Made by a program: the position numbers and the translations under genes | Part shown: in pieces, positions 15,635 through 39,074 of the stretch | How positions within the stretch are numbered: position 1 is the stretch's first letter | How the letters are laid out: each line of letters starts with the position of its first letter | Assembly (NCBI RefSeq): GCF_004309355.1 | Contig: NZ_BJCC01000001.1 | Coordinates: forward strand, 1 to 64,000 | DNA from: Enterococcus florum | GTDB taxonomy: Bacteria > Bacillota > Bacilli > Lactobacillales > Enterococcaceae | DNA: 64,000 nucleotides | Direction: 5' to 3' | Notes under the pieces: generated by a model | The model's input: only the letters and a program-made list of their open reading frames with translations | What the model was told of the DNA's origin: nothing | The model's database searches: none

Positions 15635-15726
15635 GAGCAAAAGAAAAAGTCCTTGTTTACCAAGGACTTTCGCAGGTTGTACTTCAACAGGAAGTCTAGA
15701 AACTTGCCTATCTTCTGATTTCTTTG
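15635..15726. repeat. att1: outer attachment site, copy of the rplS 3' end and terminator
   Basis: This 92-base stretch matches 38983-39074 (the 3' end of rplS and its downstream terminator) at 90 positions. It contains the 20-base core CCTATCTTCTGATTTCTTTG at 15707-15726, which also occurs at 29922-29941 and 39055-39074. Sequence to its left is chromosome and sequence to its right is element 1. The rplS-derived terminator hairpin (AAAGTCCTTG/CAAGGACTTT) is included. Confidence 0.92.
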
Positions 15727-15848
15727 TTCCTGCGAAAGTCTATAAAAGACTGATATATAAATGTTTCTTAGTAGGACAACTGCACTTTGACTGCGAATTA
15801 TTTGACCTTGTGAAACAATCACTAATATTCGTATCTATTAAATAACGA

Positions 15849-17006
15849 TTAACTCTCGAGATCAACAAAAGCATTCAGCGGTTTTAAACGTTCATCTTCA
15901 GTAAGATGACGATAAATTTCTGACGTAGACTTATCCGCATGACCCAATCTTGCTTTAAGAACGTCCCAGCTACAATGCTCAGCTACCAAGCTTGCCATTG
16001 TATGCCGCGTTAAATGTGTATGAAATGGTTTAGTGATTCCGCATTTCTTAACGCAATTTTTGATATGGTTATTCACGTAGTCTCTCCTAAATGGTAACCC
16101 TCGTTTTTTTGGTTCCAAGTAAACAAACAAGTATGACTGATCAATAATGAAATCTAATTGGGAACGCATTTCGTCTAGTACCACAATCAAGTGTTTCAAC
16201 TTTTCCATGACAAGTGGAGTAACAACAACTCGTCTTGCCGAATTTGCACTTTTTGTTGTTTCAATTTTAAAATCAATCTGTTTACTTCTGACAGCGGTTT
16301 GCTTATAAAAGAGGATCTCATTCTTATTGAAGTCAATATCCTGTGGTTGTAGGGCAAGTGCTTCGCTCACACGACATCCTGTATAAAACAGAACGTGGTA
16401 CAAAGTGCTAAGAGTCAAATCTTCATGAACCGTTGCATAGTTCAGAAAAGTACGGAGTTCATCGATTGTTAAATATTTCTGATCTAAACTTTCCAAAGAT
16501 TGTTTTAAATCCTGTACAGTTTTCTGATACTTGGGAAGTGTAACACCTTCCAATGGATTTTGAGATAAGAGCTTATTTTTGACACTGTAATTAAAAATCA
16601 TATTCAACGTTTGCTTAAAACTATAAAGAGAGTTTTTAGAATATCCCTTCTCTTTAAGATCAAAAAACAAGTTGACTAGAAAATCTGTATCAATTGATTT
16701 TAGTTCCTTATCTCCAATACACATCGAGAGAGTTTTCATTAGTGTTTCCCTCTTGTCATATGTGCTTTGTTTTTGTTCACGAAGTCCTTTATAGTAATCA
16801 AACCACATTTCAGCAATAACCGAAAATTTTTCGTTACTACCGAATATTTTTTTCCTTCTTTTATGATCTTTTTCAAGCTCCAAATAAGCATGTTGAGCTT
16901 CCCGCTTTGTTTTGAAACCTCTTCTAGTGGTTCTAAAAGCTTGAAAAGACCAAGTTGTCTTTCCTAATGAATTTTTTTGCTTTTTAAATCTATCTTTCGT
17001 TTCCAT
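15849..17006 (-). CDS. int: Tyrosine recombinase (integrase) of element 1
   Basis: 385 residues. An N-terminal AP2-like arm-binding domain (WSFQAFRTTRRGFKTKREAQ), a core-binding SAM-like domain and a catalytic domain with Arg in TGCRVSEALAL, HLTRHTMASL (HxxR), GHADKST and the nucleophile Tyr in SEIYRHLT are in order. It would insert and excise the element at the rplS 3' end; the att core lies 120 bases past its stop. It is closely similar to the element 2 integrase. AGGAGG stands seven bases before the ATG and is part of a small hairpin. Confidence 0.95.
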   Translation of the reverse strand: METKDRFKKQKNSLGKTTWSFQAFRTTRRGFKTKREAQHAYLELEKDHKRRKKIFGSNEKFSVIAEMWFDYYKGLREQKQSTYDKRETLMKTLSMCIGDKELKSIDTDFLVNLFFDLKEKGYSKNSLYSFKQTLNMIFNYSVKNKLLSQNPLEGVTLPKYQKTVQDLKQSLESLDQKYLTIDELRTFLNYATVHEDLTLSTLYHVLFYTGCRVSEALALQPQDIDFNKNEILFYKQTAVRSKQIDFKIETTKSANSARRVVVTPLVMEKLKHLIVVLDEMRSQLDFIIDQSYLFVYLEPKKRGLPFRRDYVNNHIKNCVKKCGITKPFHTHLTRHTMASLVAEHCSWDVLKARLGHADKSTSEIYRHLTEDERLKPLNAFVDLES

Positions 17007-17010
17007 TTTT

Positions 17011-17031
17011 CCTCCTAATAAAAGAAGGAGG
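17011..17031 (-). promoter_or_regulatory. Hairpin that can mask the int1 ribosome binding site
   Basis: The Shine-Dalgarno AGGAGG (minus strand, 17011-17016) can pair with CCTCCT 10-15 bases upstream (17026-17031) over a nine-base loop. A matching arrangement precedes int2 (31204-31225), so translational control of integrase is plausible. Confidence 0.5.
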
Positions 17032-17103
17032 TTGAGGTTACTGAGACTTTATCGAAGTATTCTATGAATTTCATTATAGGCTAAATTCCTCCAAAAATAA
17101 ATT

Positions 17104-17373
17104 CTATAAAGATCGTAATGACTGCATTTTTTTTATGAATGGATCATAATTTTTGTTTCTGTACCATTCAAGAATATCTTCTCTAGAATAATGTCCTCGT
17201 ATACCGTACCAACAATCCGGAAAATCAGAAAGATTGATCAATCTATTAAGTGTACTGTTACTGATTTGAAATTCTCTCTTCAAATCTTCATTAGTTAGAA
17301 TCAATGGTAGTTGTTTAATTGACAGCAGATTCGATGTATAGTCTTCAATCAACTTTTTAACAACAGGTAGCAA
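17104..17373 (-). CDS. xis: Excisionase-like helix-turn-helix protein of element 1
   Basis: Small basic protein with LILTNEDLKREFQISNSTLNRL, a winged-helix/MerR-like DNA-binding segment, then GIRGHYSREDILEWYRNKNYD. It is homologous to the 98-residue protein before int2 (both share QISxSTLNRLIN and GIRGHY). Its place just upstream of the integrase fits a recombination directionality factor. The listed start is TTG at 17373 without a clear ribosome binding site; the frame stays open upstream, so the N-terminus may be longer. Confidence 0.75.
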   Translation of the reverse strand: MLPVVKKLIEDYTSNLLSIKQLPLILTNEDLKREFQISNSTLNRLINLSDFPDCWYGIRGHYSREDILEWYRNKNYDPFIKKMQSLRSL

Positions 17374-17909
17374 TTCATTTTTCAGATATTCTTCATTCTG
17401 ATTTATTTCTTTTATTATGGGTACCTCTTGGATTATTTTGCTTAATTTGTTTTAAGACAAGAACAAATTGAATCATTACAAAATCTCCTTTCCACTTCTA
17501 AGTAAGCTTGATACTATTTTGAACCGCCTTAGGATTGGCGCACAGGTATTTCACCTCCCCTTGTAGTTAGCAGCGAGACACATTTTTGAGTGTGAGTATC
17601 ATTATAGTAAGTTGATGTCTTGGCATCTTGTTTTCCAAAGTCAAGATGATATCAGAGTTGTCTCGCTCGGCTACTACTTCATGGCGTATCTGTACTATAG
17701 CTCGATCAACTTAAAACGTTATCCAAAAATTGATATTTAATTGTCATAGAACAAATTAATTATTCATACATACATAAACTAAATCTCCTGAAATATGAAA
17801 CTTAGATTGGTTGATTTAAAATTATTTAATTTTGACATTTTCAGATTTCAAATCGAATCTCAAAAATGATAATAGTCTTTTTGATTGCATCAATCAGTAG
17901 ACAAAAATA
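17374..17909. other. Structured intergenic region between xis1 and the FUSC gene
   Basis: No gene is seen. AGCGAGACA (17572-17580) and TGTCTCGCT (17659-17667) form an exact nine-base inverted repeat enclosing further short stems. It may be part of the xis-int control region. Confidence 0.45.
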
Positions 17910-17941
17910 AGAATCACTATCAAATTATCGATAGTGATTCT
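17910..17941 (-). terminator. Terminator after the FUSC gene
   Basis: AGAATCACTATC (17910-17921) and GATAGTGATTCT (17930-17941) form a perfect 12-base-pair stem. It is followed on the minus strand by TATTTTTG. Confidence 0.85.
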
Positions 17942-17971
17942 GTTTCTTGATGTTTCTAAAATAATGTTCAA

Positions 17972-18958
17972 TCATTCAATTGATTCATAGAATCTCTTTT
18001 TGAATTTGAGAAAATCTTCAAAATCTTTCAAAATATGATAGAGTCGAGCCTTATTAATAAACTCCTGTTTAGATGATGGAACGTGCTCTTCCTGTAACTC
18101 GATGATTAACTCCGACAAATAGTCGATTTGTTCGCTACAAAAAAATTGATCTTCAATATGTTTTTTTATCTCAGTGACAAGCAAGCTGATTATCTGGATG
18201 GCTTCTTCATTATTTCTGATATTCTTAATCTCATAATGGAGATTATGTAGCAAGCCGCATTGTTGTAAACGCATTTCAAAATAATCGACAAAGTAATCAT
18301 CCTTTACTGGTAATCGATTCTGTTGATACTTCACTGCACATTTTGTTAATTCCATTAGATCATTTTCAAGTTGAATGATTTCATCCCAGATAGTACTTTT
18401 CTTTTCTGGTCCTTTGACATAATCGATCATTTTCTCGAAAATACAAACAAACCTTTTCTCGATACTTTTCTTTGATCGTTCTAAAAATTTTCTCTGGCGA
18501 GAATAGGCCTGAAATTGATTAACAATAATGGCAATAGCCAGACCAATCAACAACAAATAAAACTCATTCAATAGATCATGCATGGTTATTTCGGCACGAA
18601 ACATGAGGTGTGTGATCGAAACAGCATTAACAGATAAAGTGGACAATAAGTTCTTATAGCTAAATATGAAGGTAATGATTGTTAAAACAACTCCAAAGGT
18701 AAACCAATTATTTCCTAAAAATGGATGGAAAGTCAGTGTAAAAAACATCGTAATCAAAAAAGTACTTATCCGATTGATCCCTAATCGAATAGTTTCAGTT
18801 TTTGTAACAGCTAAAGTAAGAAGAGTAATTATGCCAGCGGAAGATGAAAAATCTAAGGAAAAAAATTCGGCAATCAGTATAGCAATAGAACTCCCAATTC
18901 CAGTCCTCAAGGCGTGCATGGTATAGTCATTTAAATTTATTTTAGGAATGAATTCCAT
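17972..18958 (-). CDS. FUSC/ArAE (DUF939-type) membrane protein
   Basis: 328 residues. The N-terminal half (residues about 10-150) has five or six closely packed membrane spans (SAGIITLLTLAVTKTETIRLG is the conserved ArAE_1 segment), and the C-terminal half is a charged cytoplasmic helical domain. The family is linked to export of aromatic or other organic acids, but few members are tested. AAGGAGAGG precedes the ATG. It follows the decarboxylase operon in the same direction with 226 bases between, so it may be a separate unit. A role in organic-acid export is inference. Confidence 0.8.
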   Translation of the reverse strand: MEFIPKINLNDYTMHALRTGIGSSIAILIAEFFSLDFSSSAGIITLLTLAVTKTETIRLGINRISTFLITMFFTLTFHPFLGNNWFTFGVVLTIITFIFSYKNLLSTLSVNAVSITHLMFRAEITMHDLLNEFYLLLIGLAIAIIVNQFQAYSRQRKFLERSKKSIEKRFVCIFEKMIDYVKGPEKKSTIWDEIIQLENDLMELTKCAVKYQQNRLPVKDDYFVDYFEMRLQQCGLLHNLHYEIKNIRNNEEAIQIISLLVTEIKKHIEDQFFCSEQIDYLSELIIELQEEHVPSSKQEFINKARLYHILKDFEDFLKFKKRFYESIE

Positions 18959-19072
18959 GATCCTCTCCTTCCAGCGCTTATGTAAAAATTTCCTGTTACG
19001 CAGTTTTTCTAGATTAAAACTGAAACTTTATTGCTGAAAAATATGTATATAGTCGTGAAACTTTTATTGTTG

Positions 19073-19173
19073 GCGCTCAAGAAACAGCCTCTCGATCATA
19101 ATCTTTTTCTTTCACAAATAGTTGCCTACAAGGAATTCTCACTTATTTTCGAAGATGGCTGTTTCTATAGCGC
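19073..19173. repeat. Long-loop inverted repeat after oadB
   Basis: GCGCT plus AGAAACAGCC (19073-19089) is repeated inverted as GGCTGTTTCT plus AGCGC (19157-19173), enclosing 67 bases. It lies right behind the oadB stop. It may be an mRNA 3' structure or a trace of a small inserted repeat. Confidence 0.55.
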
Positions 19174-19184
19174 GATAGCTTAAA

Positions 19185-20315
19185 TCAACTAAAGAATGCC
19201 AACAAAACTCCTGCTGCTACCGCTGACCCAATAACTCCTGCTACATTGGGACCCATTGCATGCATTAATAAATAATTATTTGGATTTTCATGTTGCCCCA
19301 CTTTTTGAACGACACGGGCTGCCATCGGAACTGCCGAAACGCCAGCTGCTCCAATCATCGGATTTATTTTTCCGCCAGAAAGCTTATACATTACCTTTCC
19401 TAAAAGAACACCCGAAGCAGTTCCAATCGCGAAAGCCAATAGACCCAAAACGATGATTTTCAATGTTACTGGGGACAGGAATAAGTCTCCGTCTGCTTTT
19501 GCGCCAACTGTTACACCCAATAGAATTGTCACAATATACATCATCGAGTTAGTTAAGGTTTCAGTTAGTTTAGGGACGATACGAATCTCTTTTATCAGAT
19601 TCCCTAGCATCAAGCAGCCAATCAGTGTCGTCGCGCTTGGAACGATTAGACTGATAAAGATGGTGGTCACAATCGGAAAAAGAATCTTCTCGGTTTGTGA
19701 AACTGTCCTAGCTTGAGTCATTTGGATTTTTCGTTCTTTTTCTGTAGTCAAGAGACGAATAATTGGTGGTTGAATGATTGGCACCAACGCCATGTAAGAA
19801 TATGCGGCAAGTGCGATTGCCGATAATAAGTGAGGCGCTAATCTTGTGGTAACAAAAATGGCTGTTGGACCATCAGCCCCTCCAATAATTCCTACAGCAC
19901 CTGATTCTTGCGGTGTCATTCCTAGAGCCGTTGCTAAGAAAAATGCGGCGAAAATACCAAATTGTGCGGCACCGCCTAAAAGAATCGTCTTAGGATTAGC
20001 GATTAGCGGTCCAAAATCTGTTGAAGCGCCTAAACAAAGGAAGATTAGTGGAGGATAAATACCTAAGTTAGTCCCTTGATACAAGTAGTAGAATAGCCCC
20101 CCTGGATTATTATTTGCGGCTTCACTCATTAAACCTGCCAGAGGTAAATTGACAAGTAAAATTCCAAAAGCAATTGGAACCATCAAATAGGGTTCATACT
20201 CTTTCTTAATTCCCAAATACAAAAATATACAGGCTAAAACGATCATAAATAGATTGTTGAATGACAGATTTTCAAAACCCGATGTTTCAATCATTTGCTG
20301 AAAAATCTCTAACAT
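19185..20315 (-). CDS. oadB: Oxaloacetate decarboxylase beta subunit, Na+ pump
   Basis: 376 residues with about ten membrane spans. It decarboxylates carboxybiotin on the carrier protein and uses the energy to export Na+. Family signatures are GGADGPTAIFVTTRLAPHLL, PPLIFLCLGASTDFGPLIANP and the C-terminal MHAMGPNVAGVIGSA. Length is close to the usual figure. GGAGGG precedes the ATG. It is the last gene of the seven-gene operon and lies 15 bases after the biotin carrier gene. Confidence 0.94.
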   Translation of the reverse strand: MLEIFQQMIETSGFENLSFNNLFMIVLACIFLYLGIKKEYEPYLMVPIAFGILLVNLPLAGLMSEAANNNPGGLFYYLYQGTNLGIYPPLIFLCLGASTDFGPLIANPKTILLGGAAQFGIFAAFFLATALGMTPQESGAVGIIGGADGPTAIFVTTRLAPHLLSAIALAAYSYMALVPIIQPPIIRLLTTEKERKIQMTQARTVSQTEKILFPIVTTIFISLIVPSATTLIGCLMLGNLIKEIRIVPKLTETLTNSMMYIVTILLGVTVGAKADGDLFLSPVTLKIIVLGLLAFAIGTASGVLLGKVMYKLSGGKINPMIGAAGVSAVPMAARVVQKVGQHENPNNYLLMHAMGPNVAGVIGSAVAAGVLLAFFS

Positions 20316-20330
20316 AGTATCCCTCCATTG

Positions 20331-20675
20331 TTATAATACAACCAGTAATTCTCCTGATTCGACTGTTTGATTTGATTGAACAAGGATACTTGAAACGACT
20401 CCATCGATTGGTGAAACAATTTCATTTTCCATCTTCATTGCTTCTAAAATAACTAGAGTATCGCCAGCATTCACCGTATCTCCTGTTTTTACATTAACCG
20501 ATAAAATGTTTCCTGCCATTGGTGCTGGTACTTCTTTTCCACCACCACTCTTAGGTTTTTCCGATGGAGAAATCTCGTGTGAAGTCTTAGCAACTTGAGT
20601 CGCTTCCTCTTCACTGATTTCCCTTAATGTCACCTTGTATACTTGCCCATCCACATTAATTTCATATTGTTTCAT
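20331..20675 (-). CDS. Biotin carboxyl carrier protein of oxaloacetate decarboxylase
   Basis: 114 residues. The C-terminal biotinyl domain has the lysine motif EAMKMENEI, with the usual flanks VPAPMAGNILSVNVKTGD and VSSILVQSNQTVESGELLVVL. An N-terminal segment with acidic linker precedes it. It shuttles CO2 from the carboxyltransferase to the beta subunit. In many bacteria this domain is fused to OadA; here it is a separate gene, as in other lactic acid bacteria. AAGGAGA precedes the ATG. Confidence 0.93.
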   Translation of the reverse strand: MKQYEINVDGQVYKVTLREISEEEATQVAKTSHEISPSEKPKSGGGKEVPAPMAGNILSVNVKTGDTVNAGDTLVILEAMKMENEIVSPIDGVVSSILVQSNQTVESGELLVVL

Positions 20676-20687
20676 TTGACCTTCTCC

Positions 20688-20978
20688 TTATTTAACTCGT
20701 TCGATTTTTTCTACTTGATAGTGTTTTCCTTGTTTGTTTTCACTTGCTTCTGCTAGTGCTGTTAGCAAAGCTACGCGTTCTAATTCAGCATTTGGTTGAA
20801 CCATCGTTGACTTGGCAACTTGGGATGATTTGGATACTTTTTCTTTTACGTCATTATCCGATTTATTCACAAGTTTTGCTGTTATCTGCATCAAAACCAT
20901 TAGTCCCGATAAAATAAGAAAGACTAGCGACATCGCTACAATAGTCAGGCCTAGTGAATCCATAATTGTATGTTCCAT
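20688..20978 (-). CDS. Oxaloacetate decarboxylase gamma-type small membrane subunit
   Basis: 96 residues. A single N-terminal membrane span (LGLTIVAMSLVFLILSGLMVLM) is followed by a charged cytoplasmic tail, the layout of OadG-type subunits that hold the carboxyltransferase to the membrane pump. It lies between the OadA and biotin carrier genes with nine and twelve bases of spacing. AAGGAG precedes the ATG. Confidence 0.85.
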   Translation of the reverse strand: MEHTIMDSLGLTIVAMSLVFLILSGLMVLMQITAKLVNKSDNDVKEKVSKSSQVAKSTMVQPNAELERVALLTALAEASENKQGKHYQVEKIERVK

Positions 20979-20986
20979 TAATATAA

Positions 20987-22384
20987 TCAGCTCCTTGTAT
21001 AGGCAAATATTTTAATCGGTTGTTCTGGATCAGCTGCATTGACTTCTGATTCTCCTGGTCCTTCTAAAAAGTTTTTTCCTACCTGCGGGAACAGAGCGTA
21101 GATCAATACCTCTTCATCATTCTTAGCGAGTTTCCCGATTTCTTGTTTCAATACGTCGAATTCTGGTTCAATATGATCCGCAGGACGATCGGTGATTCGT
21201 TCTTTGTCCCCTACTATTGAGGTAATAAATGCTTCATCAATTGGAACGGGGGACTTTCCGTACTCACCTAAAAGATACGATTTGACCTCATTTGAAACCA
21301 TCTTATAGCGCTCACCAGTCAATACATTCATTGCTGCCTGAGTTCCAACCATTTGGCTCAATGGTGTAACTAAAGGCGGGAAACCTAGATCCGCTCGCAC
21401 TTTTGGCACTTCCTTCAGTACTTCCTCGTAGCGATCGGTTGCGCCGGCTTGCTTCAATTGAGAGTACATATTGGAAAGCATTCCACCTGGCACTTGATAT
21501 AGTAGTGCTCTTGGATCAGGAGTTAACATTTTAGGATCAAGCAATCCGTTTTCAAGATATTTATCTTTGATATCCCGAAAATAGTTTGCTGCTTCTTCCA
21601 TTTTCTCGACATCGATAGATAGCTCATAATCATCTTCTTTTAAACTTAGGACCATCGACTCTGTCGCTGGTTGGCTGGTTCCTTCACTAAATGGAGAAAG
21701 TGCAGTATCGATACGGTCTGCCCCTGATTCAATGGCAGCTAGATAAGTCAGCTGAGCGATACCGCTGGTACAATGTGTATGGACAATTATTGGTAGACTA
21801 GTCGCTTTTTTTAACCGTTTGACTAGTTCGCGACATTTATTTGGTGTCAATATTCCTGCCATATCCTTCACACAAATAGAATCAGCACCCATTTCAGCAA
21901 ATTCTTTTCCAAGTGATTCGTAATAATCCATGGTATGAACATCACTAATCGTGTAAGCAATGGCTAATTGAGCTTCTTTCCCCGTGTTCTTTACAGCTTT
22001 CAACGCAGTTTGAAGATTCCTTGTATCATTTAATGCATCAAAGATTCTAAAAATATCTATGCCATTTTCCGCCGAAAGCTTAATGAATTTTTCAACAACA
22101 TCATCTCCATAATGTCGATATCCCAATAGATTTTGTCCTCTGATCAACATTTGCAAAGGGGTATTAGGAACTAAACGCTTTATTTTTCTTAAACGTTCCC
22201 ATGGATTTTCATTTAAGTAACGTATACAAGCGTCAAAAGTTGCTCCGCCCCAACACTCAAGTGATGAATAGCCTACTTCGTCTAACAGTGGCAACACTGG
22301 TTCCATATCTTCCATCGACATACGGGTAGCCATTAAGCTTTGATGCGCATCCCGCAAAATCGTATCAGTAATCTCAATTTTCAT
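20987..22384 (-). CDS. oadA: Oxaloacetate decarboxylase alpha subunit (carboxyltransferase)
   Basis: 465 residues. Transfers the carboxyl group from oxaloacetate to biotin, giving pyruvate. Conserved features are TILRDAHQSLMATRM (metal and substrate binding), the modified lysine region CVKDMAGIL, the metal ligands in VHTHCTSG and the PGGMLSN motif. There is no fused biotin domain, consistent with the separate carrier gene. Start MKIEITDTILRD has AAAGGA upstream. Second half of the operon after the transporter gene. Confidence 0.95.
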   Translation of the reverse strand: MKIEITDTILRDAHQSLMATRMSMEDMEPVLPLLDEVGYSSLECWGGATFDACIRYLNENPWERLRKIKRLVPNTPLQMLIRGQNLLGYRHYGDDVVEKFIKLSAENGIDIFRIFDALNDTRNLQTALKAVKNTGKEAQLAIAYTISDVHTMDYYESLGKEFAEMGADSICVKDMAGILTPNKCRELVKRLKKATSLPIIVHTHCTSGIAQLTYLAAIESGADRIDTALSPFSEGTSQPATESMVLSLKEDDYELSIDVEKMEEAANYFRDIKDKYLENGLLDPKMLTPDPRALLYQVPGGMLSNMYSQLKQAGATDRYEEVLKEVPKVRADLGFPPLVTPLSQMVGTQAAMNVLTGERYKMVSNEVKSYLLGEYGKSPVPIDEAFITSIVGDKERITDRPADHIEPEFDVLKQEIGKLAKNDEEVLIYALFPQVGKNFLEGPGESEVNAADPEQPIKIFAYTRS

Positions 22385-31634: not shown

Positions 31635-33017
31635 CTATTTACTTGCTACCTTTTTAGGAATGCTTGTCACAGTTGTTTTTGCGGACGGTTGTGACAGGCT
31701 CTTTGTTTTCCATTTCATATTTTGTTGCACTGTCTTTAGGATTTTTCCTAAACCTCTATTCTTTTTGTGTCTATTTACCTTCACAAATTTGTGAGAATAT
31801 CGACCATCAAGATTTTTCTTCTTAGGCAACAATAATTTGCCTCTTTTCATGTAATGTTCATCTTGTGTTGAAGTATATAAATTAAAACCTTCGTTAATTT
31901 TGATCAATAATTCAACTCTGCGAATGAACTGTCCCGCATCTTCTGAGAAATTGAATCGAACATTTTCGAAAAAATCAACAGGTTCCTTTGTACTTGTGAT
32001 AATAATGATTTTTGCCGAACCTAATTTATTATGATATCTTGCACTAATTGGACTAATAGTGTATGGATCAAGTAGCTTTAACCAATCCGAGACACTTAAA
32101 CTATCAGCACGAATATCATCTAGAAATAAAATTTCTTGTCCATTGTATTCGTCAAATGGATTTGTAGAAGCCGTCATACAAAATTCCCAAGACATTTTTT
32201 CATAATACAAAGCAAGCGTTTGTATCATCTTAATTATTTTTTTACTCAAAATAGTTTTTCCTACACCACTTTTTGCATGAATGAAAATAACTGTCTTTTT
32301 GAATCTACCCGCTTCTAAATCAGCTATTGTTTGATAACTTTTACTTTCTCCAAAAGTTTCAAATGCTTCATTTATCTTTCTTTTATGGAGAGCATATATT
32401 TTGTATAAATCATCTGTCAGCATTATTTGACTCTTTGTAAGATTACCTGCAACAATTTCTGACACTACATAATCAATACTTTGATTTGTTTCTGTTGCTT
32501 CCTTAATCGCACGCCCCTTTACCCATTTATCCATTCTGCGATTATAGACACTAAAATAATCTTCGCCTTTGGCTGTTACGACTTCTTTTGGATCGTACTG
32601 AAACTTTTCAAGATCTTTTGCATGTACAAGATAAGCGGTCATATTATCATAACCATATCGTCCAGACTTGGCTTTTTCCAAATACTGAGGTTCAATCCCC
32701 GAGGTTACGGCTAGGTTGGTAATCGTATTCCCTTTGTCAAATTTAATTAATAGATGAACATGCTTTGCTTTCTTCTCGATAACATTTTCCATTTTTTCTG
32801 AATCCCATACGGCAATCTCATCCTTGTCATGAATGATTCCGTACGCTTCGCTCACTACGCAATCGCTCTTTTCAAGCCGATTGACCACTTCTTCTAAAAG
32901 AGGTCGAATATTTCCTTTTTTTGCTTCTTCTATATAATCTTTATCCCATTCATGCCAAAACTGCTCATCTAATTGCTGAACAATCATGACACAATTCAAA
33001 ACAGCTTGTTTCTTCAT
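31635..33017 (-). CDS. rep: CRESS-like Rep: HUH endonuclease plus SF3 helicase
   Basis: 460 residues. The N-terminal Rep_2/HUH domain shows HVHLLIKF (metal-binding HxH) and the tyrosine motif in MTAYLVHAKD. The C-terminal helicase has Walker A in FIHAKSGVGKT and Walker B ILFLDDIRAD, plus IIIITSTKEP. Such PF01719/PF00910-type Reps serve as replication initiators and, in streptococcal mobilizable elements, as putative relaxases. Start at 33017 has AAAAGGA upstream; a TTG at 33038 is the longer option. The C-terminal 60 residues are basic. It lies downstream of tcpA. Confidence 0.85.
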   Translation of the reverse strand: MKKQAVLNCVMIVQQLDEQFWHEWDKDYIEEAKKGNIRPLLEEVVNRLEKSDCVVSEAYGIIHDKDEIAVWDSEKMENVIEKKAKHVHLLIKFDKGNTITNLAVTSGIEPQYLEKAKSGRYGYDNMTAYLVHAKDLEKFQYDPKEVVTAKGEDYFSVYNRRMDKWVKGRAIKEATETNQSIDYVVSEIVAGNLTKSQIMLTDDLYKIYALHKRKINEAFETFGESKSYQTIADLEAGRFKKTVIFIHAKSGVGKTILSKKIIKMIQTLALYYEKMSWEFCMTASTNPFDEYNGQEILFLDDIRADSLSVSDWLKLLDPYTISPISARYHNKLGSAKIIIITSTKEPVDFFENVRFNFSEDAGQFIRRVELLIKINEGFNLYTSTQDEHYMKRGKLLLPKKKNLDGRYSHKFVKVNRHKKNRGLGKILKTVQQNMKWKTKSLSQPSAKTTVTSIPKKVASK

Positions 33018-33228
33018 ATTTAAATCAGTCCTTTTCAAACTATTCTTTTAACTATTCCGTTAAAATTTTTGAGTAAAACATTACAGTAATTAGGCTTTTG
33101 GCCTGATAAATCAATTTTTTGGAATTATTACGGCACATCGACAAGCCCAGTGCCGTGTAGGCGTAGAATAATTAAATAGTTAAATGTTACGCAGTGCAAT
33201 GCAAGCCTTGCACTGCGTTTGATCTATC
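33018..33228. other. Hairpin-rich region between tcpA and rep (candidate origin)
   Basis: Four exact inverted repeats lie in 175 bases: TTTTAAC/GTTAAAA (33046-33065), an AGGC/GCCT stem near 33093, ACGGCAC/GTGCCGT (33130-33156) and an 11-base arm ACGCAGTGCAA/TTGCACTGCGT (33189-33218). The last may double as a tcpA terminator. Proximity to rep makes this a candidate double-strand origin or oriT. Confidence 0.5.
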
Positions 33229-34578
33229 TTATTTTTCTATGAACCACGGTGTTTCATAAAAATGTGGTGTTTCCCATCTTCTTCCACTACTTACAACCCT
33301 AGCGACTCCTTGACCTGTTTCGTATGAACGCTTGGGCATATCTGCAAAACCTGCCATCAGATACTTTCGTTCATCAGCGGAATCAGCGGCTCCACCTAAC
33401 ATAATAACTGCGTCTGAGCAATTTACACGCGCTAGAGAAGGAAGAAAGCCCTCTTTAGTAGCAAATTGGCTGATAGCAATAATGTGTATACCAGCACTAG
33501 CACCGGTTGCACTCAATTTGTTAACAGCAACTTCCCAACGCTTTTTTAGTGATTTATCAAGTTCTAGTTCCGCATTAAGATTTCCAATTTCATCAAAGAA
33601 AACAGCTACATCATTCATATTTTCTATTTCAAGGTACTTTTCTTTATCCGCTTCATTGATTTCATCAAGTCTTGATAACATGACTTGTACCCAGTACTCA
33701 GCTCGTTCAACAATCTCGATTGCTGTACTTTTTCCATTGAATTCTTTGACATAGCGATCATATTTTGCGGAATTATATTCCACTTCCCAACCTTGTAAAA
33801 TCATTAAAGGAGCCATATATCGACCAGCTAATACTGATTTTCCCGATCGGGTACGAGCAATAATGCTAAGATGAGGTGTCATATTAGAATGCCATATCAA
33901 GTCATCTGATAAACGAATAGCATGAACATCTGTATCAATAAATTCTGCTAAGGATTCATCAGAATCTTTAACGTAAAGCCTATTTGAAGTTTGCATGTCT
34001 TCAAAATGAAAGAGCATATACGTATCACCATCTGTCAGTTCGGATGAGACAACAGCAAAACGTCTGTATTTACCACTGAGAATACCTGATATTCTTTGTT
34101 CATATTTTTCCCGATCCATGCGCTCATAATTTGCAATATTTTCAATTGCTACATAACCATATGTTTGATCATCGGCAATCCAAACACAAATTTGTGGCAT
34201 TTCATCACCATATCGAGTTGTATTCGATAATTTCAATACATCCGTGATTTGTTTATCATTAAATAAGCTTTTAATTTTTTTAGACAGCTTCTGTGATTCT
34301 TTTGACATAGCCATCAAATCAAATGTGGTTACTCGCTCTTGATTTTTATAAGAAACAACAAAACCAATTACAAGTAGAATTGTACAAATGAAGGTAAATA
34401 TAATTGCTCGTTTAGAATAATCTTCAATCAAAGCAAAATATTTACTCGAGCTACTCAAATGATAGATGTATCCACTTAGTCCACTAGATGTAAAGGAAAT
34501 TACCAAAGTCATCAAAAAATATTGATGACTTTGGAATTTACTTTGTTTGTTGCGAATGATTCTTCGATACTTACGCAT
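33229..34578 (-). CDS. tcpA: TcpA/FtsK-type coupling protein
   Basis: 449 residues. Two N-terminal membrane spans (about residues 25-45 and 60-85) precede an FtsK/SpoIIIE-type ATPase domain with Walker A IARTRSGKSV and Walker B VAVFFDEIGN. Such proteins link the relaxase-DNA complex to a conjugation pore. Start at 34578 overlaps the upstream gene by eight bases. No pore genes are present, so a helper would be needed. Confidence 0.88.
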   Translation of the reverse strand: MRKYRRIIRNKQSKFQSHQYFLMTLVISFTSSGLSGYIYHLSSSSKYFALIEDYSKRAIIFTFICTILLVIGFVVSYKNQERVTTFDLMAMSKESQKLSKKIKSLFNDKQITDVLKLSNTTRYGDEMPQICVWIADDQTYGYVAIENIANYERMDREKYEQRISGILSGKYRRFAVVSSELTDGDTYMLFHFEDMQTSNRLYVKDSDESLAEFIDTDVHAIRLSDDLIWHSNMTPHLSIIARTRSGKSVLAGRYMAPLMILQGWEVEYNSAKYDRYVKEFNGKSTAIEIVERAEYWVQVMLSRLDEINEADKEKYLEIENMNDVAVFFDEIGNLNAELELDKSLKKRWEVAVNKLSATGASAGIHIIAISQFATKEGFLPSLARVNCSDAVIMLGGAADSADERKYLMAGFADMPKRSYETGQGVARVVSSGRRWETPHFYETPWFIEK

Positions 34579-34912
34579 TTTTCTGTACAACTTCAACAGA
34601 ATCTGCTGAGTACCATCCGCCCCGGCTAGTTTGACCACCAACTACATTTTTAAAGTGCAACATTGTACCAAATTTAACGTCCACTTTATTCGGTGCTTTA
34701 ATCACATATTCTAAATTTTGTGTATGATCAGCGATAGGATAACGATATTTACCATCTTCTAAAGCTTCGATCGAACCTGCCAAAAGCACTTTGAGATCAA
34801 GGATAGCATCCGTTGTATACTCGTTTCCGGTCCTTGGACTGATCTTCGTAATTTCTGATGTTGGATGACCTAGCACGATAGCTAAAGGGTTTACCCAAAC
34901 AGGTGATGACAT
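34571..34912 (-). CDS. Small protein of unknown function upstream of tcpA
   Basis: 113 residues, acidic to neutral, no membrane span, with a beta-rich look (for example YVIKAPNKVDVKFGTMLHFKNV). It occupies the position of the small DUF961-like genes that precede the coupling protein in Tn916-type elements, but I do not recognise the family. Translationally coupled to tcpA by an eight-base overlap. AAAGGA lies eleven bases before the ATG. Confidence 0.7.
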   Translation of the reverse strand: MSSPVWVNPLAIVLGHPTSEITKISPRTGNEYTTDAILDLKVLLAGSIEALEDGKYRYPIADHTQNLEYVIKAPNKVDVKFGTMLHFKNVVGGQTSRGGWYSADSVEVVQKNA

Positions 34913-34990
34913 AACACATCAATTCCTTTCTGTACAGCAGTTTTTGCTGTAAATACAATAGTGACGTTGCAACATAACAGAACTCTTTTA

Positions 34991-35013
34991 ATGACTTAAC
35001 TGTTAAGGGTCAT
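34991..35013. promoter_or_regulatory. Palindromic operator-like site upstream of the tcpA transcript
   Basis: ATGAC-TTAAC-T-GTTAA-G-GGTCAT is a near-perfect 23-base palindrome, 79 bases before the start of the 113-residue gene. A repressor of the transfer genes, such as the Xre protein at 37519, could bind here. Confidence 0.5.
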
Positions 35014-35041
35014 GTAACATTTTCTGTAACTTGTATTGCGA

Positions 35042-35332
35042 TTAAAAATTTGTAGCATCTTGTTCTTTGTAGATTGTTTTATAATCTTCTAATTTTTCTT
35101 TTGCTATATATATTTCATTAATCTGTGTGGCTCTCGATGAATTCGCGAATGTTAGAACATACTTTCCAAATTTCAAATTTACAGGATAATCGAATTTATC
35201 TTCGGCAATAACACAGTTCATTTTTTTAATCGCTGTATTGAGTTCTTCTGATGAAGCATTACAAGCTTTCAAGAATTCAAAAATAGATACCAAGTTGGTG
35301 GACGTTGTTTTGATTTGTGTTGAAATTTTCAT
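35042..35332 (-). CDS. Small hypothetical protein
   Basis: 96 residues with no recognised domain; starts MKISTQIKTTSTNLVSIFEF. Cytoplasmic by composition. CGAGGT precedes the ATG. It is 23 bases after the next small gene and reads in the direction of the transfer genes. Confidence 0.6.
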   Translation of the reverse strand: MKISTQIKTTSTNLVSIFEFLKACNASSEELNTAIKKMNCVIAEDKFDYPVNLKFGKYVLTFANSSRATQINEIYIAKEKLEDYKTIYKEQDATNF

Positions 35333-35355
35333 TTTTGTTTACCTCGTTAGTTAAT

Positions 35356-35601
35356 TTATTTCTTTGATACAAGCCATTTATCGTTTTGTAGTTCAACATT
35401 CAAATCTAGTTCACAAGCTTTTTCCAACAAGCTGATGGAGAAGTATGGAAATTCTAAAACTGAATACTCTTCAAATGTAGCTCGTTCAAGTGCATATTCT
35501 AGAAATACTTCATACGTACTACTTAATAAAATGTCGTATATCTTAGTGTTTTTGAAATTTTTCTGGAACGTCTCTTTTGATGTCACTTTTTTTAAATTCA
35601 T
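35356..35601 (-). CDS. Small hypothetical protein
   Basis: 81 residues; starts MNLKKVTSKETFQKNFKNTK. No recognised domain. The frame is open to 35640, but AAGGAA is correctly placed for the ATG at 35601. It precedes the 96-residue gene and is probably co-transcribed. Confidence 0.6.
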   Translation of the reverse strand: MNLKKVTSKETFQKNFKNTKIYDILLSSTYEVFLEYALERATFEEYSVLEFPYFSISLLEKACELDLNVELQNDKWLVSKK

Positions 35602-35748
35602 TGTTATTCCTTCTTTCTTGTTTGCTATAAAATCTTTCAAGATTTTGCTGCTTTCTTGATAGTCTTATTCTATGATATATATAAATAAATAGAAATTCGG
35701 TAGCGACAAAAGGTGGGTTTTGATATAATAAAGTAGAGGAGGGCGCAT

Positions 35749-36009
35749 ATGAAATGTAAAAAAGAAAACTGCCATGGAAAAGCAAATAAAGATGGTACTA
35801 AAAATGGTAAACAAAGATTTCGTTGCAAATCATGTGGACATGTTTTTCATAAGGAGTCACGTACGAGATTAACAGAAGAGCAGAGACAAGATGCAATTGC
35901 TTATAGATTTGAGGGACATACGAGAAAAGAAACAAGTGATCGGTTTGGGGTCAGCGTCAGAACTATTGAAAGATTATCAAACAAGGCTAAAGAAAACCCC
36001 ATCTTTTAG
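35749..36009 (+). CDS. Stand-alone zinc-ribbon/HTH protein, IS1 InsA-like
   Basis: 86 residues. A four-cysteine zinc ribbon (CKKENCHG then FRCKSCGHVF) is followed by a helix-turn-helix (AYRFEGHTRKETSDRFGVSVRTIERL), the layout of the N-terminal part of IS1-type transposases. No transposase catalytic part follows; a terminator comes at once. It is either a decayed insertion sequence fragment or a small regulator derived from one. GAGGAGG precedes the ATG. Confidence 0.7.
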   Translation: MKCKKENCHGKANKDGTKNGKQRFRCKSCGHVFHKESRTRLTEEQRQDAIAYRFEGHTRKETSDRFGVSVRTIERLSNKAKENPIF

Positions 36010-36044
36010 CCTTATTTTCTTCTAGACTAACTTTAAACAAAAAT

Positions 36045-36083
36045 CCCCCAGAATCTACGCGTATCAAGCGAAGATTCTGGGGG
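36045..36083. terminator. Bidirectional terminator
   Basis: CCCCCAGAATCT (36045-36056) and AGATTCTGGGGG (36072-36083) form a perfect 12-base-pair stem between the convergent zinc-ribbon gene and the surface protein gene. Confidence 0.85.
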
Positions 36084-36102
36084 TGCTTTTGAAATGAGGT
36101 AA

Positions 36103-36876
36103 TTAGTGACCCCACTCTATGCCTCCTATGCTGTCATTTCCCCCAGGGCTGTCTTGGATTCCGCTTGCATTCCCGGGCGTCCCACCAGCGGGTCCTGATG
36201 GCAGAGGGTTATTTGGCACTGGAGCGGGAGGTTGATAGTTTGGCGTCGTTGGTTGTTGATAGCTTGGTTGCTGATAATTTTGTTGTTGCTCTTGATAGAT
36301 GGGTTGGTTATTTTGTTGTGACTGTGCTTGTTCAGCCGGTTGCGCTAATTCCGTTGATACATTGAAATCATCAGCTTGGGCTATCTCTTTTTCAGTTGCC
36401 TCTTTTTTAATCTCTTCTATTAAAGAGTTCAGTTTGTTTTGTATAGTTTCTTTATCTGATTTCAAATAACTATCAGTTACTTTGTCTAATAATGCTTGTA
36501 CTGCTCTTATATCTTCTTCCGCCTTTGATTTTGTTGCTTTATCTAATGCAATGTTCAAGTCTGAAACCTGTTTCAATAGATCAACCAATTTTGACAATTT
36601 TTTAGCAAGTCTAGTTTTTTCTGCTTCTTGATTGTCGCTAAGTCCATCAATTGAAACGTTTGCTGACTCAATGTCTTTTTCATTTCTAGTCTTATACGCT
36701 TGATCAACAGCATTTTCTGCAGATTTTAAATTGTCTGCTTCTTTTTTGACTTGTTCTTCTTGTTTTTTTTGAGCAATCTCCCTTGCTTGAACTTCACTGT
36801 TGTGATGAACACCATATGCAATGCCACCAGCTAAAAAAAATACAGCTAGTGTAGCAATAACAACCCTCTTTTTCAT
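36103..36876 (-). CDS. Membrane-anchored extracellular coiled-coil protein
   Basis: 257 residues. An N-terminal signal or anchor (KKRVVIATLAVFFLAGGIAYG) leads into a charged coiled coil (about 30-160) and then a Gln/Pro-rich tail (about 185-240) ending GGNDSIGGIEWGH. There is no lipobox Cys or LPXTG. GAGGGG precedes the ATG. It lies nine bases after the membrane-protein gene, so the two probably work together at the surface. Function is unknown; exclusion of incoming elements or phage is one possibility. Confidence 0.65.
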   Translation of the reverse strand: MKKRVVIATLAVFFLAGGIAYGVHHNSEVQAREIAQKKQEEQVKKEADNLKSAENAVDQAYKTRNEKDIESANVSIDGLSDNQEAEKTRLAKKLSKLVDLLKQVSDLNIALDKATKSKAEEDIRAVQALLDKVTDSYLKSDKETIQNKLNSLIEEIKKEATEKEIAQADDFNVSTELAQPAEQAQSQQNNQPIYQEQQQNYQQPSYQQPTTPNYQPPAPVPNNPLPSGPAGGTPGNASGIQDSPGGNDSIGGIEWGH

Positions 36877-36885
36877 TCTATCCCC

Positions 36886-37377
36886 TCATTTCCATACATC
36901 ATCTTTATCATTATTAACAAATAGTATCTTATTATGTTTGACTGCTTTTCTCCATGTCTTTATCCCACTGATGGGGGCAATAAAGGCTATCCATATCTGA
37001 ATAACGATATTTTGAACAACGATTTTCCAAATCAAACTCCAAATAGAACCTACATAAATAATGTTTCTTGAAAATGTATCAATTACTCCACCTTGATAGC
37101 TCCAGTATGCATAATGCCAAAAAATAAATGCAATCACAGTCCAAATTAACGGTACAGTACTGTGTCGACTTATAAGACTATCCGTTTCAGATGTTGAACC
37201 CATGTAGCGAATAAATAAAAACATCAATAAACAGCCAACGAGCCGTCTTATATTGTATTGTTTTCGATATTCAACAGTTAGATGCTCTTTAATTGAAGCA
37301 TACACCCCTTTTGCTTTATTAGCATAATCCATTTCATTTTTCTTGGAAACTTCAACCTTTTCCTCAATTTCATCCAT
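36886..37377 (-). CDS. Small integral membrane protein
   Basis: 163 residues. About 60 soluble N-terminal residues are followed by three or four membrane segments (RLVGCLLMFLFIRYM, VPLIWTVIAFIFWHYAYW, and two around 115-145). No family is recognised. AAGGAGA precedes the ATG. It is the first gene of a pair with the coiled-coil surface protein and is divergent from the Xre regulator. Confidence 0.65.
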   Translation of the reverse strand: MDEIEEKVEVSKKNEMDYANKAKGVYASIKEHLTVEYRKQYNIRRLVGCLLMFLFIRYMGSTSETDSLISRHSTVPLIWTVIAFIFWHYAYWSYQGGVIDTFSRNIIYVGSIWSLIWKIVVQNIVIQIWIAFIAPISGIKTWRKAVKHNKILFVNNDKDDVWK

Positions 37378-37518
37378 TTCTAATCTCTCCTTTTTTTAAG
37401 ATAAACGAACAAAATAATTTTACCATTAAAGAGTCGTTTTTAACACCCCTAAGAGCTCGATTTGACTCTGATGTAAAAAGTCAATTTCGTTTAATCTTAA
37501 CGGTAGGAGGGGACTATC

Positions 37519-37881
37519 ATGCAATTGAATGATTTAATTGTTCAACGAATAAAATTTTTCCGTACAAAGCAAAAAATTAGTCAAGATACTTTGTCGAAGC
37601 GTGCAGGATTAGAACTAAAGTATATAAATAAAATTGAGAACAAAAAAATTGGAATAACCATTGCTACTTTAGAGAATATTATTATTAAAGGATTAAATAT
37701 TAGTTACAGTGAATTTTTTGATTTTCCAAAAATTGAAGATGCTGATGAAAATCACGAACAGGCCATAGCCAAATTCAATGATGAAGAATTAAAAGAAATG
37801 CTGTTGAAATTTTTAAATTTTTCTGATGAATTTGAGGATAAGCTAAAAAAAATTAAGCAGAATCTAAACACAAAGCAATAA
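37519..37881 (+). CDS. Xre-family transcriptional regulator
   Basis: 120 residues. An N-terminal Xre helix-turn-helix (KQKISQDTLSKRAGLELKYINKIENKK, about 12-40) is followed by a short acidic C-terminal helix. It is divergent from the membrane/surface pair and likely controls element 2 genes. GGTAGGAGGGG precedes the ATG. Confidence 0.85.
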   Translation: MQLNDLIVQRIKFFRTKQKISQDTLSKRAGLELKYINKIENKKIGITIATLENIIIKGLNISYSEFFDFPKIEDADENHEQAIAKFNDEELKEMLLKFLNFSDEFEDKLKKIKQNLNTKQ

Positions 37882-37990
37882 CGGTTATTGACCTTCTAAT
37901 GTTAGATTACTTCTTTTATAATTGAAAAATTTTCTAACTGTCTGCTGAAATTGGTAGGCAGTTTTTTAAACCTCGACTTCGCTCGGTTGC

Positions 37991-38043
37991 CCTGCATTTT
38001 AAGTGTGCGAAATAAGAACTCTTTCACACACTCAAAAAGCAGG
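37991..38043 (-). terminator. Long imperfect hairpin between the Xre and HNHr genes
   Basis: CCTGC (37991-37995) pairs with GCAGG (38039-38043), with inner AGTGTG/CACACT pairing. It lies just past the HNHr stop and could be its terminator. Element 1 has its oriT in the same relative place, so an oriT role cannot be excluded. Confidence 0.45.
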
Positions 38044-38064
38044 CTATTAGTAGGGTTTGATTTT

Positions 38065-38721
38065 TTAAGAATGACTTTGCTTTAAATTTTTGGTAAGTTT
38101 TTCAACTTTGGTTTTTCTATAGTCAAAACCAAGCTCTTGCATTAACATTTCCCAACTTTTGTTCATCTGACGCATAATAGTTGAAGGTGAGGGAATGATT
38201 GATTTGTCATAACTCTTTTCAAATTCAGTTCTTGATAGACTTTCAGTTAAACCTAATCGATTAATTTCATCATAAATAAGTTTTAACAATTCAAAATCAG
38301 TATACTTATCCGAATCTTTCTCCTGTTTAAATAGATAATTTAAATCACCAAATCGTTTTTTTAGTGTAGATAGTGAGGGCATACCTCTTCCAACAATCAC
38401 TTTTTCATATTTTCTTTGGGAGCAAATTCTATTTTCTTTTACAAATTCTTTAACCATTTGCTCAAGATCAGAATTATTAATAGCGTTCCATCGATATCTA
38501 TCATAAGGCTTTTTCCCCAAGGTTAGTAAAAGGTTATCCCACGATTTAAATCGTGTGTTAATAAACCATGTGCTAGGAACTGCATGTGGTTGTTCATTGA
38601 GTTTACTTTGATATTGTCTTACTGATTGAATTTCGTTCTTATTGATGAACTCTTGAATGATCCCCAAAAGTTGAAAATCATTCATTTCCTTCCATACTAT
38701 ACGTTTATCATTTGCTTGCAT
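38065..38721 (-). CDS. HNHr-like repeat protein of element 2, unknown role
   Basis: 218 residues, homologous along its length to the element 1 protein at 28931-29584 (shared blocks WKEMNDFQLLGII, MPSLSTLKKRFGDL, IPSPSTIM). It has the same three degenerate homing-endonuclease-associated repeats and no nuclease motif. AAAGGAGA precedes the ATG. It lies next to the attachment site at the end opposite the integrase. A structural or recombination role at element ends is inferred from conservation of position. Confidence 0.7.
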   Translation of the reverse strand: MQANDKRIVWKEMNDFQLLGIIQEFINKNEIQSVRQYQSKLNEQPHAVPSTWFINTRFKSWDNLLLTLGKKPYDRYRWNAINNSDLEQMVKEFVKENRICSQRKYEKVIVGRGMPSLSTLKKRFGDLNYLFKQEKDSDKYTDFELLKLIYDEINRLGLTESLSRTEFEKSYDKSIIPSPSTIMRQMNKSWEMLMQELGFDYRKTKVEKLTKNLKQSHS

Positions 38722-38982
38722 TTAATTAGCTCTCCTTTGAAAGTACTTATAAGAAGCCTGCAATATTTGCTTTTGTGCAACTGAGTTTGCTGCAATGGTT
38801 TTTCTTTCCGATTTGAGCAACCACAACTTCAAAGATGCACAATTCGGTAATCGTTTTGGTATTTTAGGAATGGCTTTTGTAGTCAGTCCAACCCCTTAAT
38901 TTATTCCATTTTTGACTACACAGGTAGTCAAAGTGGGAAAATCTAAGGGAATTTGAGAAAAATTTCGATTTTTAGAAAAAAA
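38722..38982. other. HNHr-side end of element 2
   Basis: No gene. It contains TTTGACTAC (38911-38919) and its perfect inverse GTAGTCAAA (38924-38932), and GGTAATCGTTTTGGTA near 38850, both shared with element 1. These are candidate arm-type integrase sites. Confidence 0.55.
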
Positions 38983-39074
38983 GAGCAAAAGAAAAAGTCC
39001 TTGATTACCAAGGACTTTCGCAGGTTGTACTTCAACAGGAAGTCTAAAAACTTGCCTATCTTCTGATTTCTTTG
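38983..39074. repeat. att3: attachment site inside the rplS 3' end
   Basis: The 20-base core (39055-39074) overlaps the last five codons and the stop of rplS. The remaining bases hold a terminator hairpin (AAAGTCCTTG/CAAGGACTTT) that now ends the rplS transcript. It matches att1 at 90 of 92 positions. Confidence 0.92.

Follow-up and report, generated by a model that had tools for sequence, protein, structure and literature searches.

The 3' end of rplS, the gene for ribosomal protein L19, has very probably received two mosaic IMEs in successive insertions, at a site already scarred by an earlier element. The DNA analysed, hereafter the window, comprises positions 1–64,000 of the forward strand of contig NZ_BJCC01000001.1 from Enterococcus florum (GCF_004309355.1), in which the array occupies positions 15,635–39,074 and consists of two elements arranged in tandem, element 1 of 14.2 kb and element 2 of 9.1 kb. 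This array is an IME accretion, of a kind already known from streptococci. Relatives were drawn from a set of 105 family genomes, coded G001 and so on, which includes the window's own genome; features are on the minus strand except where a plus strand is indicated.

The boundaries are set by a 20-bp core, CAAAGAAATCAGAAGATAGG, corresponding to the final codons and stop of rplS, which is present as an exact match at 39,055–39,074 (att3, the rplS/element 2 junction), 29,922–29,941 (att2, the element 2/element 1 junction) and 15,707–15,726 (att1, the distal core), with no further copy elsewhere in the 64-kb window even at 3 mismatches and no matches in 100 shuffles. The double insertion in the last codons of L19, marked by three direct repeats, that had been proposed in a preliminary description of this DNA is thereby located precisely: core to core, element 1 covers 15,727–29,941 (14,215 bp) and element 2 covers 29,942–39,074 (9,133 bp). 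Comparison with relatives indicates that rplS (39,056–39,427) takes its last codons and stop from element 2, reading AGA AGA TAG where the counterpart in relatives is CGT CGT TAA, and it is followed by the rplS-side end of element 2 (R2, 38,979–39,054), which contains a terminator-like hairpin and a T-run. The stretch shared in recombination between attP and the rplS end is approximately AAAGAAAT. Each integrase would recombine attP with the last rplS codons, the element bringing a replacement L19 end (Arg-Arg-stop) and a terminator, so that rplS would remain intact.

That these are tandem site-specific elements with common integration parts and differing cores, as first described, is borne out by sequence comparison and Pfam. 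The matching ends consist of the tyrosine integrases recognised by Pfam, int1 (15,849–17,006) and int2 (30,020–31,198), which are 69% identical, the excisionase-like HTH proteins xis1 (17,104–17,373) and xis2 (31,303–31,605), 62% identical over 78 aa, and, at the opposite ends, two HNHr proteins that are 55% identical, one of 220 aa in element 1 (28,931–29,593) and one of 218 aa with three predicted helical repeats in element 2 (38,065–38,721). The HNHr proteins score 23.6 and 24.8 against PF18780, just under the curated cut-off of 26, and an AlphaFold2 model is helical with three repeats (mean pLDDT 84.7, pTM 0.42); when this model was compared with PDB structures by Foldseek, nothing reached E <= 0.001 (the best E being 1.6). 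An HNHr gene was found at all 19 of the relatives' rplS-side ends examined, and HNHr distances co-vary with integrase distances (Mantel r 0.76 for 21 elements, a value uncorrected for shared ancestry). Judged from sequence, xis-int and HNHr would flank attP on the circle, and they travel as one integration module.

Related integrases (E <= 1e-60) occur in 22 of the 105 genomes, the window's included. Among the 21 outside the window's genome, the neighbouring end is the native rplS 3' end, CGTCGTTAA, in 19 and element-type in one (G043), and the last (G011) lies at a site other than rplS; some of these relatives may be decayed, the integrases of G043, G066 and G083 giving only partial matches. 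The element-type end pattern was found in 30/105 genomes, one of which (G029) has it away from rplS, and the reversed control in 2. A comparison with relatives for unoccupied rplS sites, as the preliminary description had advised, did reveal them, with 9 native and 8 element-type ends at 17 same-genus loci (20 genomes in the same-genus set, 2 without an rplS match). Where rplS and the integrase lie on one contig, the distance between them is 41–59 kb in seven of nine genomes, and T4SS genes are present by Pfam in the one long element so checked (G006).

The integration module thus characterised belongs to an rplS-targeting family, found mainly in Enterococcus, that includes efaB5, which shares with the window elements its integrase clade, insertion at AAAGAAAT of rplS and an HNHr gene on the rplS side. 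According to the available text of PMC3022643 and PMC1899230, efaB5 of Enterococcus faecalis V583 comprises EF1847–EF1897 and is called Tn916-like, and PMC3022643 reports its enrichment in an E. faecalis lineage associated with hospitals; its site and integration module are the same as those found here. In G020, exact matches were obtained for three of the four published efaB5 junction primers: ef1898 lies within rplS, ef1895 at the distance published, 4,573 bp, and ef1847 at the integrase end, while the fourth, ef1843, had no match in the G020 stretches searched. The G020 element resembles those of the window in having HNHr next to rplS and xis-int at the far end, and its MobT is 48% identical to that of element 1, but it measures 50.4 kb core to core against 9 and 14 kb for the window elements, which have no recognised T4SS genes. 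efaB5 is in this way joined to a family with rplS as its target in many enterococci, and small mobilizable elements reuse the integration module of that family; among the papers listed by searches of one open-access library, none was found to name rplS as an ICE or IME site.

The outer copies of the repeat are alike at 93/96 positions (15,631–15,726), and the 90/92 identity reported earlier was obtained again for 15,635–15,726. Such a likeness could be taken as the true attL/attR pair of one composite element that reached the site whole, with att1 and att3 as its limits; recombination between these two sites would leave an intact rplS end, and composite excision by att1 x att3 is possible. Joint entry is nevertheless very unlikely, as int, xis and HNHr are all present in each part together with a core of its own, and as native host sequence follows the distal core in 19 of the 21 relatives, which means that the outer identity reflects an added element end and not a feature of att sites. 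What the preliminary description missed is that att1 carries a third element's rplS-side end in truncated form (15,635–15,706, with a terminator-like hairpin), a scar that at an element-free site would end rplS in AGAAGATAGG, followed by a truncated terminator. The likeness of the outer repeats arises because att1 has lost the native rplS end and has a third-element end in its place; it falls to 82/92 columns when taken over 90 bp past the core because the att1 copy is cut off. By this comparison, the near-identical outer repeats are not an ordinary attL/attR pair.

Gene conversion between the ends of the array could likewise have made the flanks of att1 and att3 alike without any third element, the copies being very similar and lying within one array. 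We regard this as unlikely: att1 has GGTAAACAAGG in common with the ends in G022 and G086 where att3 reads GGTAATCAAGG, and therefore is not simply a copy of att3, and the similar tract ends after the terminator, at a point where native sequence is missing. Insertion of both IMEs at a site with a pre-existing scar is retained as the preferred reading. Beyond the scar lie a 51-bp spacer, for which no origin was found among the relatives' loci compared, and a second SAICAR-synthetase-like (purC-like) gene of the chromosomal flank (14,825–15,538, plus strand), which in G009 comes after the native distal end.

Decayed or lost rplS elements are found in relatives G076, G077, G086 and G091, and footprints at rplS may be read as a record of past insertions. 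To our knowledge, no accessory DNA-binding or directionality factor of the HNHr kind is known from ICEs. We tentatively suggest, as a possibility of rather low probability, that HNHr is an obligate third component of the tyrosine-integrase module, acting as such a factor, and that the elements serially rewrite the 3' end of an essential ribosomal gene, their footprints outliving them as the next landing site.

Element 1 carries a MobT-type relaxase (27,527–28,705; PF02486 and PF18106) together with metabolic cargo, as had been noticed from the sequence and as Pfam agrees; the protein scores 205 bits against PF02486 (cut-off 29.6) and 497 bits against NF041493, the latter below the NCBIfam MobT cut-off of 600. 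Its oriT is of the Tn916/ICESt3 type with a complete motif, formed by IR1 with the presumed nic region CCCCCAGTATCTAACTAGGGGGGT (28,815–28,838) and, 68 bp away, by IR2, a putative relaxase-binding inverted repeat (28,708–28,747). The likeness to Tn916/ICESt3, as given in the passages available from PMC4740735 and PMC9371924, extends to GTATCTAAC in a C/G-rich inverted repeat, a second repeat 68 bp off and a position upstream of mobT (IR1 of the Tn916 type being quoted in PMC4740735 and the 68-bp spacer given for ICESt3 in PMC9371924), whereas element 1 differs in an A...T variant of the IR1 stem and in having no conjugation genes of its own.

The cargo comprises genes for an AraC-type regulator (25,570–26,634), the L(+)-tartrate dehydratase subunits alpha (ttdA, 24,390–25,313; 503 bits, cut-off 365) and beta (ttdB, 23,782–24,393; 348 bits, cut-off 264), a DASS-family anion transporter (22,457–23,725), oxaloacetate decarboxylase alpha (20,987–22,384) and gamma (20,688–20,978), a biotin carboxyl carrier protein (20,331–20,675), oxaloacetate decarboxylase beta (19,185–20,315) and an aromatic-acid-exporter-like membrane protein (17,972–18,958). 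This tartrate/oxaloacetate cassette looks as if made for tartrate use. Tartrate genes also adjoin Tn916-type conjugation genes in G012, and the pathway is thus carried by elements of two distinct kinds; a search of one open-access library for tartrate or tartrate dehydratase on Enterococcus mobile elements returned nothing that was relevant by title.

With its own integrase and att sites, a relaxase and oriT and no recognised T4SS, element 1 fits an IME, its mobility being predicted from these parts. It could instead be a shrunken ICE that has lost its T4SS and not a mobilizable core joined to the rplS module, given that its order of int, tartrate cassette and MobT resembles the G012 tartrate ICE less the conjugation genes, and that a Tn916-type ICE located elsewhere in G006 encodes a MobT 64% identical to that of element 1, whose oriT variant it shares. 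Against this, MobT identity to element 1 is only 46–49% for six rplS elements and the G012 ICE and 25% for G001, but 93% and 74% for two regions of G016, in which no match to VirB4 or TcpA was found within the 20 kb examined. Over 1,967 bp the MobT-oriT stretch has 92% identity to part of a G016 contig that carries another tyrosine integrase, and the rplS end of G016 is native. We consider the shrunken ICE unlikely, and favour a mobilizable core that was joined to the rplS module.

The Rep with TcpA that had been assigned to element 2 stands as regards the Rep/relaxase (31,635–33,038), which matches PF01719 and PF00910 (35 and 38.7 bits, cut-offs 24.6 and 21.5) and gives weak matches among PDB sequences to a viral-type Rep helicase (E 6e-4). 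The TcpA-like coupling protein (33,229–34,641) is less certain, having no Pfam match and no useful PDB sequence match and being weakly FtsK/SpoIIIE-like (PHROG 1358, E 7e-6; 31% over 74 aa to an ICE TcpA); the claim that only element 2 has a coupling protein holds for element 1, among whose listed ORFs none was found, and is qualified to this extent for element 2. Element 2 also has a 113-aa ORF (34,571–34,912), kept beside TcpA-Rep in G038 and (fragment seen) in G105, and a divergent Cro/C1-type HTH regulator (37,519–37,881, plus strand). The Rep-TcpA module lies beside other tyrosine integrases at the GMP synthase gene in G038 and at recO in G105. A candidate oriT/replication-origin hairpin (33,128–33,156) was confirmed once, in an independent genome; its motif (<=3 mismatches) was absent from the 3,694 bases searched of a lactococcal plasmid of 3,978 bp whose Rep is 39% identical, and was not found in G031, where Rep is matched only in part (35%) and with stops. 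By its own integrase, att sites and PF01719-PF00910 relaxase, element 2 appears to be an IME as well, with nicking predicted.

Among the ORFs of the two elements none was recognised as a T4SS gene, so that neither showed the complete T4SS with VirB4 that defines an ICE, and the host genome gave no match above cut-off to PF12846 (VirB4-type) and none to the VirB4 of a related ICE. The suggestion that element 2 may assist the transfer of element 1 is unsupported, since no Tn916-type VirB4 was found, and the coupling protein is only distantly like that of a MobT-type ICE. After excision, MobT would nick element 1 at its Tn916/ICESt3-type oriT and the PF01719-PF00910 relaxase would nick element 2 at the hairpin upstream of rep; an incoming ICE might then provide the mating pore by which both elements leave, element 2 perhaps using its own coupling protein. 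These DNA sites can now be tested, the one as an ICESt3-type oriT and the other as a candidate origin for the little-studied PF01719-PF00910 relaxases. That no resident helper was found in the genome, and that decayed or lost rplS elements occur in relatives, would suit a pair of dead remnants, fixed in place with excision lost. Both elements, however, keep open reading frames for int, xis, relaxase and HNHr, and element 1 has a complete oriT motif, which makes this reading rather unlikely, though not negligible. No circular junction was found in any sequence examined. Enterococcus phage record OR846691 was considered as a circular form and rejected: it ends in native rplS sequence and represents an integrated end, 99.9% identical over 2,868 bp to that of G020.

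Streptococcal IMEs, as far as the accessible passages of PMC5357655 and PMC5704250 describe them, are alike in having MobT or PF01719-PF00910 relaxases, TcpA in some, ribosomal-gene targets, tandem accretion, module exchange and sizes of 5–18 kb apart from one. The integrases of accreted streptococcal elements are given there as 21–69% identical, and the window pair are 69% identical. The differences are the host, Enterococcus, the tartrate-pathway cargo and the site, nine of ten streptococcal tandems lying at rpsI, rpmG or rplL and that of the window at rplS; 'rplS' does not occur in the available text of PMC5704250, and the available rpl passages of PMC5357655 concern rplL. The same target, the rplS 3' end, is used by the Group B Streptococcus integrase type GBSInt3, which, in the part of PMC7487436 available, is that of a prophage and has a listed att sequence different from the window core.

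The 20-bp core CAAAGAAATCAGAAGATAGG, which is also the sequence in which rplS ends, occurs at 39055-39074, 29922-29941 and 15707-15726, with no further copy in the window when up to three mismatches are allowed and no match in 100 shuffled controls, so that the three direct repeats with an identical core reported in the preliminary description are borne out; the two outer copies extend into a 96-nt repeat with 93 identities. They delimit element 2 (29942..39074; 9,133 bp, GC 0.34), which adjoins rplS, and the distal element 1 (15727..29941; 14,215 bp, GC 0.36), the flanks having a GC of 0.42-0.43. The claim that both have matching integrase-excisionase ends and matching ends with HNHr, the helical-repeat protein gene on the rplS side, also holds: the integrases are 69% identical, the excisionase-like proteins 62% over 78 aa and the HNHr proteins 55%. 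In kind the two are ordinary, an accretion of IMEs at a ribosomal gene, and what is useful lies in the particulars: the rplS site, which was not found named as an ICE or IME site in the literature searched, a third end preserved as a fossil, oriT sites that can be recognised and an exchange of modules that can be traced.

A match to rplS was found in 18 of 20 same-genus genomes (the window's counted). At the 17 other loci the gene ends either in a native form, AAAGAAAT[C/T]CGTCGTTAA, or in an element-type form, AAAGAAAT[C/T]AGAAGATA (eight loci), and the nine native ends provide the comparison with insertion-free rplS that had been proposed. Set against each other, the two forms indicate that an element swaps out the last two Arg codons of rplS, the stop and the terminator. 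Of 105 family genomes, 22 (the window's counted; relatives carry G numbers, the host being G000) have related integrases at E <= 1e-60, the matches in G043, G066 and G083 being partial only. The distal ends in the other 21 are native in 19, element-type in G043, which is a second tandem at rplS, and unrelated to rplS in G011, whose integrase lies at another site and whose own rplS end is native. Scanning GTDB contigs turned up 28 loci. Close relatives (58-71% identity), found in Enterococcus, Bavariicoccus, Tetragenococcus and one Streptococcaceae MAG, account for 19 of them, with 16 native distal ends, one of the G011 type and two unreadable; these loci overlap much with the genomes of the first survey, so the two sets of counts are not independent. 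The element-type cores of the G043 tandem lie at rplS and at the first element's distal end (contig 1, ~934010 and ~960092; loci L085/L086), and ~5 kb beyond the distal one rplS codons recur in a separate, truncated copy. In G040, an HNHr-side element end (L150, L151) is fused to the final codons of rplS at a distance of ~42 kb from the real gene, whose own end is native and is adjoined by a distantly related integrase.

After a simple insertion, the native rplS end lies beyond the distal core. Here the distal core, att1, is followed by an element-type end with its terminator, cut off at 15635, then by 51 bp (15584-15634, inverted ends GTTTGA/TCAAAC) lacking any substantial match among the loci compared, and then by the end of a purC-like gene that is preceded by a native end in G009 and a damaged native end in G086. 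Most likely an older element decayed until nothing but the segment ending L19 was left, and the two present elements arrived later; the scar would predate both. The element-type end itself spreads horizontally, since it is nearly identical to att3, the rplS/element 2 junction, in G022 (89 of 90 columns) and G086 (86 of 90) while the rplS bodies diverge (310 and 302 of 354 positions identical to the window's). The element-type pattern is present in 30 genomes, 21 of them integrase-bearing, and in G029 it is not at rplS. It stops at a contig edge in G022, G045 and G093, and is accompanied by an integrase piece in G090, by a broken HNHr in G077 and by HNHr without integrase within the 40 kb fetched in G086; neither gene was found in ~19 kb beside it in G076 and G091. 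The purC-like gene (14825-15538), which comes after the rplS site in both G009 and G086, is a second SAICAR-synthetase-like gene, and another, 29% identical, lies on host contig G000:C19.

In the circular form, HNHr and int would flank attP. HNHr was present at the rplS-side end in all 19 integrase-bearing relatives examined (G011 and G066 left out), as a 138-aa piece in G002 and at the displaced end in G040, and the int and HNHr distances correlate across 21 elements (r 0.76, p 0.0001, shared ancestry not removed). The two ends form one module rather than two separate ends. HNHr is predicted to fold into three helical repeats and scores just under the cut-off for PF18780; a role in recombination is putative.

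Nine genomes have rplS and the integrase on one contig, spanning 41-59 kb in seven, 26 kb in G043 and 8 kb in G083, and six elements measure 43.0, 45.2, 46.9, 50.1, 50.4 and 59.0 kb from core to core. The G006 element, the one searched with Pfam for conjugation genes (the other measured ones were BLASTed for int, xis, HNHr and MobT), carries DUF961 twice, an FtsK-like TcpA, MobT, ArdA, a VirB4-type AAA_10 and a lysozyme-NlpC/P60 protein. The junction at EF1898 of efaB5, an element of Enterococcus faecalis V583, is already in print. G020 contains exact matches to three of the four published efaB5 junction primers: ef1898 falls within rplS, and the spacing to ef1895 is the 4,573 bp in print. The primer ef1843 had no match in the stretches searched. 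By these matches the G020 element is efaB5 or a very close relative. No VirB4 was recognised in element 1 or element 2. The host genome, whose 73-contig assembly makes such an absence less than absolute, gave no PF12846 above cut-off (one weak match, 20 bits) and no match to the G006 VirB4 query, which does match in G012 (71%).

The MobT of element 1 carries an HTH, and its oriT comprises IR1 (28815-28838, CCCCCAGTATCTAACTAGGGGGGT) and IR2 (28708-28747), 68 bp apart. IR1 is of the Tn916 type as given in PMC4740735, and ICESt3 has the same spacing according to PMC9371924. A search for the IR1 pattern hits 24 of the 105 genomes, and one for its reversed control hits none. A second Tn916-type oriT site of the host (G000:C33:579-600, L167), near the contig start, is 84% identical over 88 bp to the element 1 oriT region, with no relaxase match in the 6 kb fetched. 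Over 1,967 bp, the oriT-MobT stretch shares 92% identity with a region of G016 whose contig also bears a different, Pfam-confirmed tyrosine integrase, and region and integrase probably belong to one element; no rplS-type integrase reached E <= 1e-60 in G016. The stretch at 17517-17778, between xis1 and the cargo, is 79% identical over 266 bp to a part of that contig. G006 has, at another locus, a Tn916-type ICE whose MobT is 64% identical to this one; the identity is 46-49% to seven others and 25% to that of G001. The relative in the G006 ICE slightly raises the small chance that element 1 is a shrunken ICE.

As an IME, the preferred reading, element 1 has a tartrate cassette for cargo, in which TtdA and TtdB score above NCBIfam cut-offs and are joined by a DASS transporter, oxaloacetate decarboxylase subunits, an AraC regulator and an ArAE protein. 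TtdA (E <= 1e-60) occurs in six of the 105 genomes, the window's counted. The cassette in G012 (L126, L132, L133), which uses a different transporter, is flanked by another tyrosine integrase and Tn916-type conjugation genes; Pfam-confirmed tyrosine integrases lie in the fetched TtdA flanks of G092 and G093, and the profile and BLAST searches run picked up none near TtdA in G069 and G099.

Element 2 encodes a Rep (PF01719 and PF00910), a TcpA-like protein and a 113-aa ORF, a trio that recurs at 60-62% identity in G038, where a GMP synthase gene and a different tyrosine integrase lie next to it. When the tcpA-rep spacers are compared, a conserved hairpin emerges, whose folding is only moderately better than that of shuffled sequences (7 of 200 did as well). 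Its motif is found in 3 of 395 genomes of the order (control 0), namely the two source genomes and G105, where it is flanked by Rep (58%) and TcpA (64%); the region there adjoins recO and carries a third tyrosine integrase. G105 offers one independent confirmation of this hairpin as a candidate origin. Pfam confirms the GMP synthase gene as well as recO and the integrase of G105. A type III restriction-modification pair is present in both Rep-TcpA regions, that of G038 (L131) and that of G105 (L166), and the integrases of the two regions differ.
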